A stretch of DNA of 64,000 nucleotides from Amphibalanus amphitrite (Eukaryota; Arthropoda; Thecostraca; Balanomorpha; Balanidae), in contig NW_024881714.1 in NCBI RefSeq assembly GCF_019059575.1, positions 248,001 to 312,000 on the forward strand, read 5' to 3'. Numbering within the stretch: the first letter of the stretch is position 1; every line of letters begins with the position of its first letter. A program made the position numbers and the translations under genes. The notes beneath the pieces were generated by a model that saw nothing but the letters and a program-made list of their open reading frames with translations, had not been told where the DNA came from and ran no database searches. Below, piece by piece: positions 1-55,304 of this stretch.

Positions 1-2076
1 TACTCCGCACGGGCCGGCGCGGCCCCATCGTGTTCGGTGACCACGTGCGACCGGCCTGTCTGCCGCCTCCGAACGACATCAGTGCCGAGTTCACTGCCTG
101 TCTCGTGTCCGGATGGGGTGAGCTTAAAGCTGTAGGGGGGTGGGGTGTGGAGAGCTGTATGGGGTGGGTGAGCTGAGAGCTGTAGGGGGTGGGTGAGCTG
201 AGAGCTGTAGGAGGTGGGTGAGCTTAGAGCTGTAGGGGGGTGGGTGAGCTGAGAGCTGTACATAGGGGGTGGGGTGAGCTAAGAGCTATAGCAGAGTGAT
301 TGGTGGGATGGGCGTTGAGTTATAGGGGAGCAGAGCCAGAGGCCGGTGGGGTGAGCATAGAGCTGGTGAAGCAGAGGGCTGGGGTATACCGTGGGATGGA
401 CAGTGATGTGAAAGGGCGTACTTTAGCAGTAGCTGTAAGTTGTAACCCTGGAGGATCAAATCATTTTGGATTTTGAACGGCAGCTATAATAATAAATTAA
501 CGTGAACTACATTGAATAGCTGATTAAAATTATAATTTTGAGTGTGAAATAGTATTTTATTCAAAATTGGGTACTCTTTTGTGGTTGCTGGGGGTAAGTA
601 TACATTTTATCGCTATAATTGAGTGTCTTGTAAATTAAAGTAGAATTTCCGCGGTTCTCCGCTATTTTTCCCGTCATCTCCATAGAGATGTCACCTCACC
701 CTTGACGCCGCCCTGTCGGCAGGCGCCACCGACACTGAGCGTCGTCCGAACGTGCTGCACGGCACGGAGGTACCGTACGTCTCCTCCGACTTTTGTTCGT
801 CGCCGGAGGTGTGGGGCGCCCTGTTCAACGGCACTGGCCAGCTGTGCGCCGGTGACACGGCCGGCGGACGGGACTCGTGCGGCGGCGACTCGGGCGGTCC
901 GCTCGCCTGCCGGGACGCCAGTGGTGAGTGGGGACACCAGTGCTGGAATGGCAGGGACGCCAGTGGTGGGTGGGGGACACCAGGGCTGGAATGGCAGGGA
1001 CGCCAGTGGTGAGTGGGGACACCAGTGCTGGAATGGCAGGGACGCCACTGGTGAGTGGGGGGACACCAGGGCTGGAATGACCGAGACGCCAATGGTGGGT
1101 GAGGGACACCAGGGCTGGAATGGCAGGGACGCCAGTAGTGAGTGGGGGATTCCAGGGCTGGAATGGCACTGGCAGGGACGCCAGTGGTGAGTGGGGACAC
1201 CAGGGCTGGAATGGCAGGGACGCCGACGGCTTTTAAATGAATGCAACGCGTCCCCGAGCGCTGTTACACATGTTTAAGCCGGTAATTGATTTATGTCGAC
1301 GTTTTAGCCATCCGAGGTCTCCCATCCTCCATGCTGTCTGATGTCTGCTGTGTTCTTGCCGTCTAACTGTACTATTTTATAAGTTCCGGCATACAAGTCA
1401 CATGAGCTGCTCCACGCGCTCGTGACTGAGGTCTCCTGCGTCTTTTAATCTCCCCAGTCTCAGCCAACCTGAGACACAATAGCCCATGCGGCCTGGCCAT
1501 TGCCAGCCTGACGGTATCACATCACCCGTCTTTCAGGCCGTTCTGGCGCGTAGGATAGTCCCTGGGGCTCAGATACTGTCCCCGGTCGCCTATCTGACCT
1601 CTCCTGGGGCCCAGATGTTCGATGTATGTTTCCTGTCTGACCTATCCTATCTTTCAAGCCAGTGCAGTGGCTGGGAGGCTGACATCGTCTCCTGGGGACC
1701 AGATGTTCGGTTTACGTCTCTCCTCTCCTGTCACTCCTTTTTGGCGTCTCCTGACATATCCATTGTTCCAGGCCGGTGGCTGGCGGCCGGTATCGTCTCC
1801 TTTATCTCCTGTTGTGTCTCCTTTCTGGCGTCTCCTGACATCTCCATTTTTCCAGGCCGGTGGCTGGCGGCCGGTATCGTCTCCTGTTGTGTCTCCTTTC
1901 TAGCGTCTCCTGACGTCTCCACTGTTCCAGGCCGGTGGCTGGCGGCCGGTATCGTCTCCTGGGGCTCCGACGACTGCGGTCAAACGGTCCGGGTTGGCGT
2001 CTACACCCGCGTCTCCGCTTATGTGCCGTGGATCGTATACGTAATTGACAACGTGTTCGAATTCAGCTCCGGCTAA
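1..2076 (+). CDS. Trypsin-like serine protease gene, 3' part (spliced, 5' end outside window)
   Basis: Three exons, 1-117, 723-923 and 1931-2076, join in phase 1 at both introns and read through to a TAA at 2074-2076. The product is the C-terminal half of an S1-family (chymotrypsin fold) serine protease. Seen in order: a strand ending in VRPACLP, the SGWG motif, a Cys-rich stretch, GDSGGP with the catalytic Ser, then GIVSWG and GVYTRV near the C-terminus. The residue six before the catalytic Ser is Asp (in RDSCGGDSGGP), which in this family means cleavage after Arg/Lys. The catalytic His and Asp exons would lie left of the window. Such enzymes are normally secreted, acting in digestion, clotting or immune cascades; I cannot tell which here. 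Both introns carry minisatellites made of copied splice sites. Confidence 0.9.
3..117 (+). CDS. Serine protease exon a (partial at window edge)
   Basis: Open frame from base 3 gives the strand before SGWG (PIVFGDHVRPACLPP, then CLVSGWG). It ends at GGATGGG|GTGAGC with donor GT at 118-119, phase 1. The exon begins outside the window. Confidence 0.88.
118..360 (+). repeat. Minisatellite carrying copies of the exon-a 5' splice site
   Basis: About six or seven copies of a roughly 26-bp unit, core TGGGTGAGCTGAGAGCTGTA, start at the authentic donor and continue into the intron. Most copies keep GGTGAGCT, so each is a potential 5' splice site. Confidence 0.85.
361..722 (+). other. Intron a remainder, no other feature
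   Basis: AT-richer intron sequence that ends in the acceptor CTGTCGGCAG at 713-722. I see no gene or mobile element in it. Confidence 0.7.
723..923 (+). CDS. Serine protease exon b with catalytic Ser
   Basis: Starts after CAG at 720-722 in phase 1 and ends at GCCAGTG|GTGAGT (donor 924-925), phase 1. It encodes the disulfide-rich segment and GGDSGGPLAC. The Asp in RDSC sets trypsin-like specificity in this family. Confidence 0.9.
913..1232 (+). repeat. Minisatellite carrying copies of the exon-b end and 5' splice site
   Basis: Seven copies plus a partial one of a 42-48 bp unit begin inside the exon (GGACGCCAGTG) and include the donor GTGAGT. Starts near 915, 956, 999, 1041, 1084, 1127 and 1177, then a broken copy at 1219. 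Five of the seven keep GTGAGT; two read GTGGGT. Confidence 0.9.
1233..1485 (+). other. Intron b middle, no feature seen
   Basis: Unique intron sequence between the donor-type array and the acceptor-type array. Confidence 0.6.
1486..1930 (+). repeat. Minisatellite carrying copies of the 3' splice site and exon-c start
   Basis: Repeated blocks of pyrimidine-rich CTCCTGAC...TTCCAG followed by the exon start GCCGGTGGCTGGCGGCCGGT. Exon-like starts are at 1772, 1856 and 1931 (spacings 84 and 75 bp). Diverged copies lie near 1535 and 1655. Both spacings are multiples of three and the frame is open from 1486 to the stop. Confidence 0.88.
1931..2076 (+). CDS. Serine protease terminal exon c
   Basis: Starts after TTCCAG (AG at 1929-1930), phase 1, and encodes RWLAAGIVSWGSDDCG, then GVYTRV and the C-terminal helix (AYVPWI), ending in TAA. 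The copy at 1931 is chosen because it continues directly into coding sequence, but the copies at 1772 and 1856 could also act as acceptors. Confidence 0.88.
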
Positions 2077-3000
2077 AGTACAACTGCCCCAATGACGTCA
2101 CTGGTGGAATACAGCGGCTAAGTGTGGTTGACGTCATTGGAGGAACTCAGCCACAGCGTTCTACTGAGACTTACCGAGCCTTTGTTATCCGGGAGCTTGT
2201 TCTTTCGAGTGGCTTAGAGCTGCCTGTGGGTAGTTTTTTTTTTTAACGAGAACTGTCTGCAAAATGTGCTCAGTAGGTGGGATATTACGAGAACGGGACA
2301 GACGTAATCTTTGATATTTTTGTGGGATTTTCGTGTCTTATTGTAATCCATCTCGTACTCCATAACCTACTCTATATGCCACTGTAAGAGTCATTATGCG
2401 AACGTGAACGGACTATGGACACTGACAGTACTTCGTGACTGATGTCGCACCGTTTGGGAATCTGGCGTCTCCACCTTGAGGGCGTGGTGTTTTAAAAGAG
2501 GTGTGAAAATATATTCAGTACCGCACCACTTTCACTACATCTTGTATTCATCATTGAACATGTTGCTTTCAACACAAGTAAAATTGTAGCGGTGCATTGC
2601 TCATTGCTCCAAGGACGGACATTGACAGTTTCGTTCCATGGTCGTGTGGAAAACTGCCGGCTAGGAAATGTAAAAGAGGGTCTGTTATCGACGGCGGGGT
2701 CTGTCTCAAAGGCTGCGGTAATTTAGATAAGATATGCAGTTGCACGCACAGATTCGTAAATAAATGGAACGTCTATAGCAATACGCTGTAATTAAATTCC
2801 AATGACGATTAACTTGCTGCGACGACCCACACTAAGTGCTCTAGTATCTCTATACTATATATGATTTAAGTAAGGTTTAACCCAAGTGAAGGAAGGCAGC
2901 CTTTGAATTGTACAGCAGCCCATTTTACATCACCATCCATTATACATCAACCCGCGCTCCGTACGTAGTATACCGCGCGTACGGTATACGGCTGCTCTAA
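2077..3000. other. Intergenic: protease 3' UTR and spacer
   Basis: An AATAAA lies at 2759-2764 and could be the protease poly(A) signal. I see no convincing gene here. Short open frames at 2597-2791 lack family features. Confidence 0.45.
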
Positions 3001-3284
3001 CACGCCTGCACCCCGCTCCCCCCCCCCCCTCCGGATAGCAGCCGGCGAGCGTACACAAGGTCACCGGGCGCCGGCGCCGGGCGCGGCGACTGATGCGCGA
3101 CTGGCTCAGTGCAAGGGCTCAGTGTGCTCAGTTGGTGTCCGGAGCGCGGTGCGGCGGGGAGCGGGCCACGTCTCTCAGCACCGCACTCGGTCGTGCAGTC
3201 TATGTGAGGACTCCAGGCTCCAGCACTAATTGGTCATAGCATCTGCCGCGAGAAGACTATCACAAGTCGCCGCATTTGATCGCA
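3001..3284 (+). promoter_or_regulatory. Probable promoter and 5' UTR of the PM20D1-like gene
   Basis: A GC-rich stretch directly upstream of the start codon. Three TCAGT initiator-like motifs (3106-3110, 3119-3123, 3128-3132) fit the arthropod Inr consensus TCAGT. The transcription start itself is inferred. Confidence 0.4.
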
Positions 3285-3555
3285 ATGTGGGACCTAGCAC
3301 CTTCCATCGCGGCGGCGGCCGGTAGTGCTCTGCTGGGTCTAGTGTCGGTGGTGGTCGGCCGTACACTACTGGCCCGTCGGCGGCACTACGTTTTCAGCCC
3401 CGCTGACCTGAGCTCGGCTGACCTGACCGCGGAGGACCTGCAGGGCAGCGAACAGCGTCTGGCGGGGGGTCTGGCCATACCGACCATCTCTGTGTCTCAT
3501 GACGCCCCGCCACCCAAGAAGGAGCTACTCGACTATCACAAACATCTCCGAGAGA
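3285..3555 (+). CDS. PM20D1-like exon 1
   Basis: ATG at 3285 and an N-terminal hydrophobic segment, then LAGGLAIPTIS, the family's substrate-proximal strand. Ends at CCGAGAGA|GTGAGT, phase 1. Confidence 0.9.
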
Positions 3556-5154
3556 GTGAGTACTGCATGCGTGCTGGTGCCGAGGTGATGTCTGTTGCCA
3601 GTAATGTGTCATTTATCTGTCGTCGTTGATCAATTTGCGTTATTTGCCTGTTGTATACCGTATGCGTCCGGTTGTTGTTTCTAATAACTCGCACAAGATC
3701 ACCTGTTTTTATGCACATGCCATGATGTTAATCGTTGCAAGACACGCTGTAGGCGTCCGGTAACCTGATCTGAAAGTGTTTATCCAGATGACATCGGTTC
3801 CGGCCGTGGCTGGGAGTGTTTAGGGTGCGAGTTTTAGCGTCATTCGGCGAAACCACGCCACCCCGGGTTCTCCTCTTGATCGTCTGACCATCCCCGTCCG
3901 CCCGCAGGTTTTCCAACCGTGTTCAACTCTCCGCTGGTTACGGTGGAGATTGTGAACGAGCTGAGTCTGCTGCTGACGGTGCACGGCTCGCGGTCCGAGC
4001 TGCGTCCCTACCTGCTGCTCTCTCACATGGACGTAGTGCCCGTGAATGAGGAGCGCTGGAACCACCCGCCGTTCGGAGGCCTGATCAAGGACGGCTTCAT
4101 CATCGGTCGGGGAGCCATCGACGTCAAACAGACCACGCACGCTATCCTGGAGAGCTTGGAGCACCGACTGAAGACTGGAGACGCGCCGAAGCGGTCACTC
4201 TTCGTCGCACTGGGACATGACGAGGAGATTAACGGCACGCGAGGAGCCAAGGAAATCGGTAAGCTTCTGGGAGAGCGAGGCGCCCAGCCGCTGTTTATTA
4301 TAGACGAGGGCACGGCCATTCTGGACCGGTTCATGCCGGGCGTGCGCTCCCTGGTGGGGGTGGTGGGGGTCTGTGAGAAGGGCTACCTGTCCGTGGAGGT
4401 GACGGCTCGCGGCGAGGCCGGCCACTCGAGTATCCCGCCGCCGGAGACGGCCGTCGGCCGGCTGGGACACGCGCTGGCCCGTCTCCACCCGAACCCGCAG
4501 CCGCTGCTGCTCGGCCGCGGCCCAGAGATGGAGCTCATCCAGCTGGCCGGCGCCGTGGCAAAGGGGCCGTTCAGGTTCGTCTACGCCAACTTCTGGCTGT
4601 TTAAAGGTCTCATCCAGAAGGCGTTCCTCAAGAACCGTGCCATGCAGGCGACCATCCAGACGAGCACAGCTGTGACTATCATAAAAGGTGGCTACAAGGA
4701 GAACGTCGTGCCCGGCGAGGCCACGGCCGTCATCAACCACCGCGTCTCACCGCTGATGGACCGTGACGCCGTCATCGCCGTCGACCGCGCCGCCATGCGC
4801 GACCCCTCGCTCGAGCTCAAAGTGCTGCGCGAGAGCGCGCCGTCGCCGATCGCTCCGTACGGCGAGGAGGACGGCCCGTTCGGTCTGATCGGCGCCACCC
4901 TACAGCAGATGTACGGAGACGAGGCGATGGCCGTGCCGGGGGTGATGATCGCCAACACGGACACGCGGCACTACCTGGAGCTCACCGATCATGTGTATCG
5001 ATTCAACCCGATCGTGCTGCGGCCGGACCAGCTCGGCATGTACCACGGTGACAATGAGATGATTGCCGTCGACAACTACCACCACTGCGTCCGCTTCTAC
5101 TACCGGCTGATGAAGAACTCGGAGAGTGACGCCGCCGTGGCCAAGATGCCGTGA
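3285..5154 (+). CDS. PM20D1-like N-fatty-acyl-amino acid synthase/hydrolase (peptidase family M20)
   Basis: Two exons, 3285-3555 and 3908-5154, give 505 aa, close to the roughly 500 aa of vertebrate PM20D1. PM20D1 is a secreted enzyme that condenses free fatty acids with amino acids to N-acyl amino acids and hydrolyses them. Residues 8-28 form a hydrophobic signal or anchor segment. The M20 di-metal site is complete: His130 (LLSHMDVVP), Asp132, bridging Asp162 (GRGAIDVK), general base Glu196 and ligand Glu197 (GHDEE), Asp223 (FIIDEG) and His470 (MYHGDNE). The GNTDSR-like motif of PM20D1 appears as ANTDTRHY. The start is the first ATG, with good phase through the single intron. Another M20 carboxypeptidase activity is possible, but end-to-end similarity favours PM20D1. 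Confidence 0.93.
3556..3907 (+). other. PM20D1-like intron 1
   Basis: 352-bp intron, GTGAGT to CCGCCCGCAG. No repeat or other gene seen. Confidence 0.85.
3908..5154 (+). CDS. PM20D1-like exon 2 (catalytic and lid domains)
   Basis: Begins after CGCAG at 3903-3907 in phase 1. It reads SFPTVF across the junction and stays open to TGA at 5152-5154. It carries all the metal ligands, the dimerisation/lid domain and the C-terminal catalytic half. Confidence 0.93.
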
Positions 5155-5645
5155 AAGGTGGTGAGCGGTGAAGGGTCTCTCGCAGAGGCAGATCAGTGGA
5201 TAGCGGCAGCCCGGGCTTCGAGGAGAAACGACTCTGCAGTTGGAAGCACACGGCTGACCAGCGACGGGCTGCGATGGATCAGCGATGAGCTCTATGAGAT
5301 GGGTTCGCACATATAGACACTGTGCTGTTACCGGGTCGTTAATGCCATTTGTCATTATTTTGACGGCTGTGTATTTTGTTGTATGATTTATTACGTTAAT
5401 GAAGGTATGCAACGCGCTATAAATGGGCAATATGAAAAGGTTGTTGTTAAGCAGCCCTAAATGCACATTGCATTAAGCATTTGAAGGACAGCCTTGCTAA
5501 ATATATGTAATGGAAAAGTTTGTACATGTAATTGACTGGCGGCTTTGGGTTCGTTCTTCCTTCGGTTATGGTTACTCCCCATGAATAGACAGAAAAGAGC
5601 GCCGACAGGCGACCTCATAAATTAATAAAATAGTTCAGTGTCCCG
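5155..5645 (+). other. PM20D1-like 3' UTR
   Basis: Non-coding sequence from the stop to just past the poly(A) signal at 5624. Confidence 0.6.
5624..5629 (+). terminator. Poly(A) signal AATAAA for the PM20D1-like gene
   Basis: Canonical AATAAA 470 bp after the stop codon, the best-placed hexamer before the convergent neighbour. Confidence 0.6.
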
Positions 5646-5930
5646 ATGCTATCGTATTAGGATCAAAATGCAGTGAAGGTCAACAAGCCATGACAATGCA
5701 TTTCATCATGTCTCCACATAATCATACCTCACGAGGCGCAGCAAGCACCTGATTCAGAAGTACTTGGCCTCTGACATGAGCACCCGAGCTGTGACATGAG
5801 CACCTCCACTTAAGGGCAGGACACACCTCAGACCAATGCGATATCGCCGTATCTCCTCCACTATCGGCAGCGACAAGACACCTCACAAAAACACTGAGCT
5901 CGGCCCACCGCCCACGTGGATATGTAAAGC

Positions 5931-5936
5931 TTTATT
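5931..5936 (-). terminator. Poly(A) signal AATAAA for kazrin
   Basis: AATAAA on the - strand, 410 bp beyond the kazrin stop codon. It implies a 3' UTR of about 6345 to 5910. Confidence 0.65.
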
Positions 5937-6345
5937 TAGCCACTGGCGATGCGCACCGCGTCGGTAATATATAAAGTGAGTGAGGGCGACGGTCGACGCC
6001 CGTCGACCTGCGCGCGCCGGCGAGCAGGGCTGCGACGAACCGCGCGTCACCACGACTTGAGCTGGCGTCGGCGGCGCGCCGTCCGTTTGTACAGCGGGGG
6101 TCGGTCTCTGGCAGCGCCGCCGCACGCTGCGCGCCGCTCGCGACATGACTAGAGCTTTGGCAACCACGGTGGCGCCGCCTGCGCGCTGCGGCCGGCCCGT
6201 CGTCGGCCGCCTCTCAGATATATCACAGCGGCGCCGGCCACATTTTACCGAGAGCAGCGGCAGCCAGAGCGCCACGCGCGCGCCCAGCACCATCTCCCGG
6301 CGAAAAATTAAACTAGAGTTTGGTCACGGTGCCTCTGGCGGCGCC

Positions 6346-55304
<48,959 letters not shown>

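Follow-up and report, generated by a model that had tools for sequence, protein, structure and literature searches.

Minisatellites that straddle exon edges in genes of an acorn barnacle

Introduction

What places a tandem repeat on the edge of an exon, with the splice site inside the repeated unit? The question is raised by a stretch of 64,000 nucleotides from the acorn barnacle Amphibalanus amphitrite (G000:C217:248001-312000, hereafter the window), in which minisatellites straddle four exon edges, three in a trypsin-like protease gene (two donors, one acceptor) and one in a kazrin gene (a donor). An initial annotation had described these four arrays, three at donors and one at an acceptor, as carrying splice signals, and all four are indeed present. 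It went on to propose that they exemplify a general pattern, that a mechanism duplicates splice junctions or selection keeps such arrays, and that introns may be in the process of being born.

Similar repeats are known from amphioxus, where Adh is said to have furnished the original report of what are called mirages. In the available portions of two papers (PMC3087553, PMC3902484), mirages are minisatellites over exon–intron boundaries (in Adh3, globin, troponin C and PGBD5), with units of tens to ~160 bp at donors or acceptors and many copies bearing AG/GT; regular splicing is reported to be undisturbed, haplotypes differ in copy number, and intron gain has likewise been proposed. Human genes in segmental duplications contain internal tandem repeats with ~30-bp units, some at exon–intron boundaries (available text of PMC2812944), and the repeats of a prawn lectin, in the accessible part of PMC7536079, lie inside coding regions. 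A literature search for boundary-spanning arrays outside amphioxus, covering few subscription papers and other sources only in part, returned none but the human case (PMC2812944) and none in an arthropod, and a search combining barnacle, genome assembly and minisatellite found nothing.

Results

The first 36.5 kb of the window hold three genes (Table 1): the trypsin-like protease gene (1-2076, plus strand), which is partial as its start lies upstream of position 1, an M20-peptidase gene and the kazrin gene. The two array-bearing genes had been described as neighbours; in fact the M20-peptidase gene intervenes, and no array was listed in its intron (3556-3907). Exon edges were placed on GT and AG, so that the presence of GT/AG at 38/38 modelled junctions holds by construction, and protein matches back most modelled exons. 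The spliced trypsin model matches plasminogen in the PDB (E 2.5e-29), and the minus-strand kazrin model, an approximate query, matches an A. amphitrite protein at 98% over query residues 400-760. Given the first donor copy of array A6, kazrin exon 32261-32477 is in frame with 33525-33656 and 19899-20111. An Rfam search returned 0 families and a tRNA scan 0.

Table 1 Exons, genes and arrays in the window, with myosin arrays from elsewhere in the genome; a vertical bar marks a splice junction
Feature	Position	Strand	Description	Basis or relation
Trypsin-like serine protease exon	1..117	+	ends ..CLVSGWG	identical to P0121/P0122
Array A1	116..291	+	25-bp unit x6.8	begins 2 bp inside exon, donor 117|118
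Serine protease exon 2	723..923	+	..DSGGPLACRDASG	protein matches
Array A2	912..1224	+	43-bp unit x7.2, GGGACGCCAGTG|GTGAGT...	tandem-repeat listing, alignment
Decayed older copies of exon-3 acceptor region (A3)	1507..1587, 1628..1697	+	two copies	alignment scores
Array A3	1741..1961	+	75-bp unit, three copies, TTCCAG|GCCGGTGGCTGGCGGCC	TRF and by eye
Serine protease exon 3	1931..2076	+	RWLAAGIVSWG..	protein matches
M20-peptidase gene	3285..5153	+	two coding exons, the first from the model only	sits between array-bearing genes
Kazrin gene	6346..36481	-	18 coding exons modelled, including alternative first	hosts A4, A5 and A6
Array A4	10796..11129	-	35-bp unit, nine copies by eye, GATGGATAARCTGGTCCGRCCCGCCAG|GTGAG	two TRF rows
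Kazrin exon at edge of A4	11102..11246	-	ends ..RRHLAAEMDKLVRPAR	exon end recognisable in other arthropods
Array A5	15988..16398	-	31-bp unit	stops 10 bp short of the acceptor of kazrin exon 15867-15977
Array A6	32199..32261	-	17-bp unit, ~three copies	begins at kazrin donor 32261|32260
Kazrin exon at A6	32261..32477	-		exon prediction, reading frame
Myosin array L028			34-bp unit	spans acceptor
Myosin array L039			50-bp unit	spans acceptor
Myosin array L035				abuts acceptor
Second myosin array L039				begins a few bases past donor
Myosin array L038				begins ~26 bp past donor

Exon bases lie inside the repeated stretch in all four edge arrays, 12-31 of them in A2, A3 and A4 and ~2 in A1. The description of the arrays as all beginning at an exon edge therefore fits A1, and gives way for A2, A3 and A4 to units that contain exon sequence. 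Most A1 units retain GGTGAGC, and some have lost the donor. The A2 unit includes 12 bases from the end of exon 2 (at 923) together with the donor, and the A3 unit takes in the acceptor and the first 31 bases of exon 3 (start 1931), its acceptor copies giving exon starts at 1772, 1856 and 1931. TRF called A3 at 1805-1961, and one further copy was added by eye from ~1741. Upstream lie the two decayed copies of the same region, with scores of 55 and 52; the highest score was 41 among 300 shuffled sequences and 45 among 597 control chunks. In the intron that holds A2 and A3, 642/1007 bases repeat one or other of its exon edges. In kazrin, the A4 unit covers the last 28 bases of its exon plus the donor, A6 (GAAG|GTGAGC...GG|GTGAGA...) includes one exon base, and A5 adjoins its exon edge without spanning it. 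Neither A5 nor the L035 array was accepted as spanning, as both only abut. A5, A6 and the decayed copies of A3 add to the initial annotation.

Several other features of the window were recorded. The exon predictor ran kazrin exon 32261-32477 on to the second copy of the A6 donor (32245), an overrun of 16 bases that exemplifies how such arrays mislead gene models. Another kazrin exon start (20103-20112) offers two AG sites separated by 8 bp (CAGCGCTACAG). The outer site continues the frame of exon 32261-32477 and appears in database proteins; our guess is that the inner site is also used. Both A. amphitrite kazrin proteins contain a large alternative first coding exon (25773-27258, MGNYSS..), at unequal lengths. 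A 1.2-kb minisatellite with a 20-bp unit in ~59 copies occupies 49746-51101, with no exons found around it, and the ends of 8221-8700 roughly resemble inverted copies of each other by eye, perhaps marking a small inserted element. The trypsin domain is uninterrupted in the closest trypsin paralogs among the matches listed (C371:535976-536710, C1683:25899-26633 and C227:758452-759186) and in most listed trypsin matches; the gene in the window has two introns inside the domain.

The exon parts of two units are old protein sequence. That of A3 (GRWLAAGIVSWG) is recognisable in a protease of Pollicipes, and the exon end in A4 (..HLAAEMDKLVRPAR) in the kazrin of a crab (Portunus), a myriapod (Chamberlinius), a stick insect (Bacillus rossius) and a horseshoe crab (Limulus). 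Because of this age, we take the exon as the source and the intronic copies as derived; the exon protein is older than the array. Database proteins show the outer splice sites only: two database proteins are 100% identical to the outer-site splice of the trypsin gene across the searched 149 residues, and the A4 junction is crossed without interruption in both kazrin proteins of A. amphitrite.

The general pattern suggested by the initial annotation recurs in unrelated genes. To locate myosin exons, we searched the entire genome (807,550,619 bases in 2644 contigs) for the myosin head, which gave 100 matches, and picked 20 stretches (88,020 bp, holding 62 of the 100 matches) before repeats were looked at. 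With a cut-off of period at least 20 and length at least 80, these contain 12 arrays. The 20 stretches are not independent loci and the 12 arrays are not fully independent, as two haplotype pairs are included (L024/L026 and L039/L043), several stretches represent one gene, and four L035 arrays lie close together in apparent repeated blocks. After the L030 stretch was extended by 701 bp, its array proved to repeat the last 16 bases of the upstream exon plus the donor. L028 and L039, which from their motifs we take to be myosins of class VII and II, share an intron at the same position and phase (S|GESGAGKT), and it carries unrelated arrays in the two genes. Across the genes covered, units contain exon sequence and a splice site at donors (A1, A2, A4, A6 and the C73 myosin array) and at acceptors (A3, L028 and L039). 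Boundary-spanning units are those of A2, A3, A4 and three myosin arrays, and A1 and A6 include just 1-2 exon bases.

Many genes occur twice, on pairs of contigs that keep the same gene order, and we read the paired contigs as two haplotypes. On this reading, copy number differs between haplotypes at two other genes, both myosins. The L030 unit is repeated 9.0 times on C73 and 2.0 times on C174, and the adjoining exons differ at a single silent position. The L039 unit is present in 3 copies on C1610 and 2 on C1212, the difference being exactly one 50-bp unit in stretches that are 91.7% identical over 1993 bp. At both differences the exon protein is unchanged, and the edge copies are common to the paired contigs. 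When a second haplotype of the trypsin exon was sought in the genome, a close match was found on C217 alone; the L028 exon, sought likewise, also had a single place. In the comparison of L044 and L030 with L045, the C73 exon copy has a silent base in common with the intronic copies that is absent from the C174 exon, a possible trace of exchange between the exon and its array.

Tests of enrichment at exon edges disagree. We placed arrays at random such that at most 31 coding bases were covered. In window positions 1-36481, 4/5 arrays of at least 100 bp span an edge against a mean of 0.3 under this null (reached in 0/20,000 placements anywhere and 3/20,000 in introns; P 5e-4 within their own introns), values that carry the selection of the window for its array pattern. 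In the myosin set, 3/12 arrays touch an edge (P 0.03) and 4/12 lie at most 5 bp from one, against 0.82 expected (P 0.006). With the L030 exon that was found later, these become, post hoc, 4/12 touching (P 0.004) and 5/12 within 5 bp (P 0.0008). By this test, arrays lie nearer to exon edges than exon-sparing random placement gives.

Counted per junction, the result is different. Under a rule that a copy spanning the junction must lie within 500 bp, which A1 misses and with A6 not among the 38 junctions, 3/38 junctions are covered. Among random points the share is 3.2% for 3000 drawn from the window (P 0.12 for the junctions against these) and 3.3% for 2000 drawn from the genome; a local repeat covers ~3% of such points. 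Genome-wide, we counted two exact copies of the donor CAGGTGAGT 15-45 bases apart, with control motifs of the same composition and on the motif letters alone. The donor forms 315 tandem pairs per 9134 occurrences (3.45%), and the three controls form 118 per 4644 (2.54%), 50 per 6314 (0.79%) and 297 per 11,741 (2.53%), so that the donor exceeds them 1.4-, 4.4- and 1.4-fold, respectively, and the pooled control (2.05%) by 1.7x, with control rates that differ threefold among themselves. We give no P value because pairs cluster in arrays. Counted as loci up to contig C214, the donor has 33 and the 0.79% control 11, or 2.1x per occurrence. According to these two tests, splice sites are repeated about as other sequence is, or ~1.4-2x as often when set against most controls. 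Because the motif test is genome-wide and free of the window choice, we take the excess as modest.

These figures bear on the proposal that some mechanism favours the duplication of exon edges, such as breaks or R-loops linked to splicing or to GC-rich exon ends, which would make junctions hot spots. Such a mechanism would fit the placement excess in the window and the myosin set, as well as the position of the donor motif above its controls. However, per-junction coverage equals that of random points, the controls themselves vary threefold, the window was chosen for the pattern, and in 200 kb of scattered sequence 0/14 arrays lay at most 10 bp from any of 34 predicted exons (judged by eye, with low power). 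Given the per-junction coverage and the motif counts, we do not take the excess in the window to prove a mechanism, and the junction-duplicating mechanism of the initial annotation is not supported; we consider it unlikely.

Alternatively, selection could retain repeated splice sites that aid or regulate splicing, as decoys or alternative exon ends. GT is retained in all intronic copies of A2 (6), A4 (8) and the C73 myosin array (8), and when the 14 GT sites of A2 are combined with four acceptor copies, 6 of the 56 trypsin combinations are open to the normal stop. Yet aligned copies average 89-99% likeness to the exon copy, so that two fixed bases prove little. Moreover, the donor is lost from some A1 units, the last copy of the myosin array is without the GTAAGT consensus, 50/56 combinations fail to reach the normal stop, and the database proteins use the outer sites alone. 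Selection of this kind is thus a distinctly improbable cause.

The birth of introns by tandem duplication of AG|GT segments is a model in print (available portions of PMC3087553 and PMC3443670), and since the closest listed trypsin paralogs are without an intron in the domain, the introns in the window could be new, or could have been lost elsewhere. Against this, the array units at the donor and acceptor ends of the intron with A2 and A3 are unrelated, and two copies of one exonic AGGT segment do not flank it (both by eye); A1 and A4 each sit at one edge only. The S|GESGAGKT intron appears older than its arrays, because its position and phase are common to two myosins whose arrays are unrelated, and this speaks against the suggestion that such arrays capture introns being born. 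From sequence comparison, the arrays give no sign of intron gain, and the absence of the trypsin introns from the closest listed paralogs may represent either gain or loss. We regard intron birth as very improbable here.

An assembly artefact or a post hoc reading could be suspected, since tandem arrays are hard to assemble and the window was picked by the reader who made the initial annotation. Yet the same anatomy recurs in the stretches fetched blind to repeats, and the edge copies are shared by paired contigs; we find such an artefact scarcely credible.

Discussion

We favour, with a probability of roughly 70%, ordinary tandem duplication that is tolerated at exon edges since the outer splice site still works. 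A special junction-duplicating mechanism is not needed. The seed would be an ordinary short tandem duplication, arising through replication slippage, unequal exchange or error-prone break repair, that by chance straddles an exon edge. The outer site, beside the intact exon, would presumably stay in use in the RNA, and the extra copies would fall inside the intron and be nearly harmless. The array could then expand and contract on its intron side as any minisatellite does, with the exon copy as its fixed end copy. In favour of this reading, the exon- and intron-derived parts of the units resemble the exon copy to nearly the same degree (94 vs 93%, 90 vs 89% and 99 vs 97%).

Three observations stand against tolerated tandem duplication as the whole account. 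The edge bias in the window and the myosin set exceeds what simple neutrality predicts. Edge-straddling seeds alone should leave junction coverage below intron coverage, and the two are about equal. Finally, the donor motif lies above all three controls, and above the 0.79% control when loci are counted up to C214.

Judged on sequence anatomy, the barnacle arrays appear to be an already described kind of repeat, the same as the mirages of amphioxus. As in the accessible accounts of mirages (PMC3087553, PMC3902484), units span the boundary, at both 5' and 3' sites, and copy number varies, in the barnacle at myosin genes. The barnacle arrays differ from those accounts in occurring in a crustacean, with several in a small region, and in including a class with just 1-2 exon bases (A1 and A6). 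They also resemble the human internal tandem repeats in unit size and position at boundaries; in the available text of PMC2812944, however, the human repeats alter transcripts, whereas the barnacle database proteins show outer sites only. Like intron gain by tandem genomic duplication as set out in the available part of PMC3443670, the barnacle duplication carries AG|GT, but in that model an exonic segment is duplicated and turns into an intron, whereas in the barnacle at least one intron position appears older than the arrays.

Boundary-spanning minisatellites are thus more than an amphioxus oddity, recurring in an arthropod, and they shift in copy number between apparent haplotypes while the exon stays fixed. 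It is a long shot that barnacle exon edges are true hot spots, several-fold above intron interiors, in which case a few percent of junctions would carry expanding arrays and form a reservoir of alternative splice sites that differ between haplotypes. Because many genes are represented by two contigs in this assembly, it offers a direct way to measure how such arrays arise and expand and what they do to splicing.
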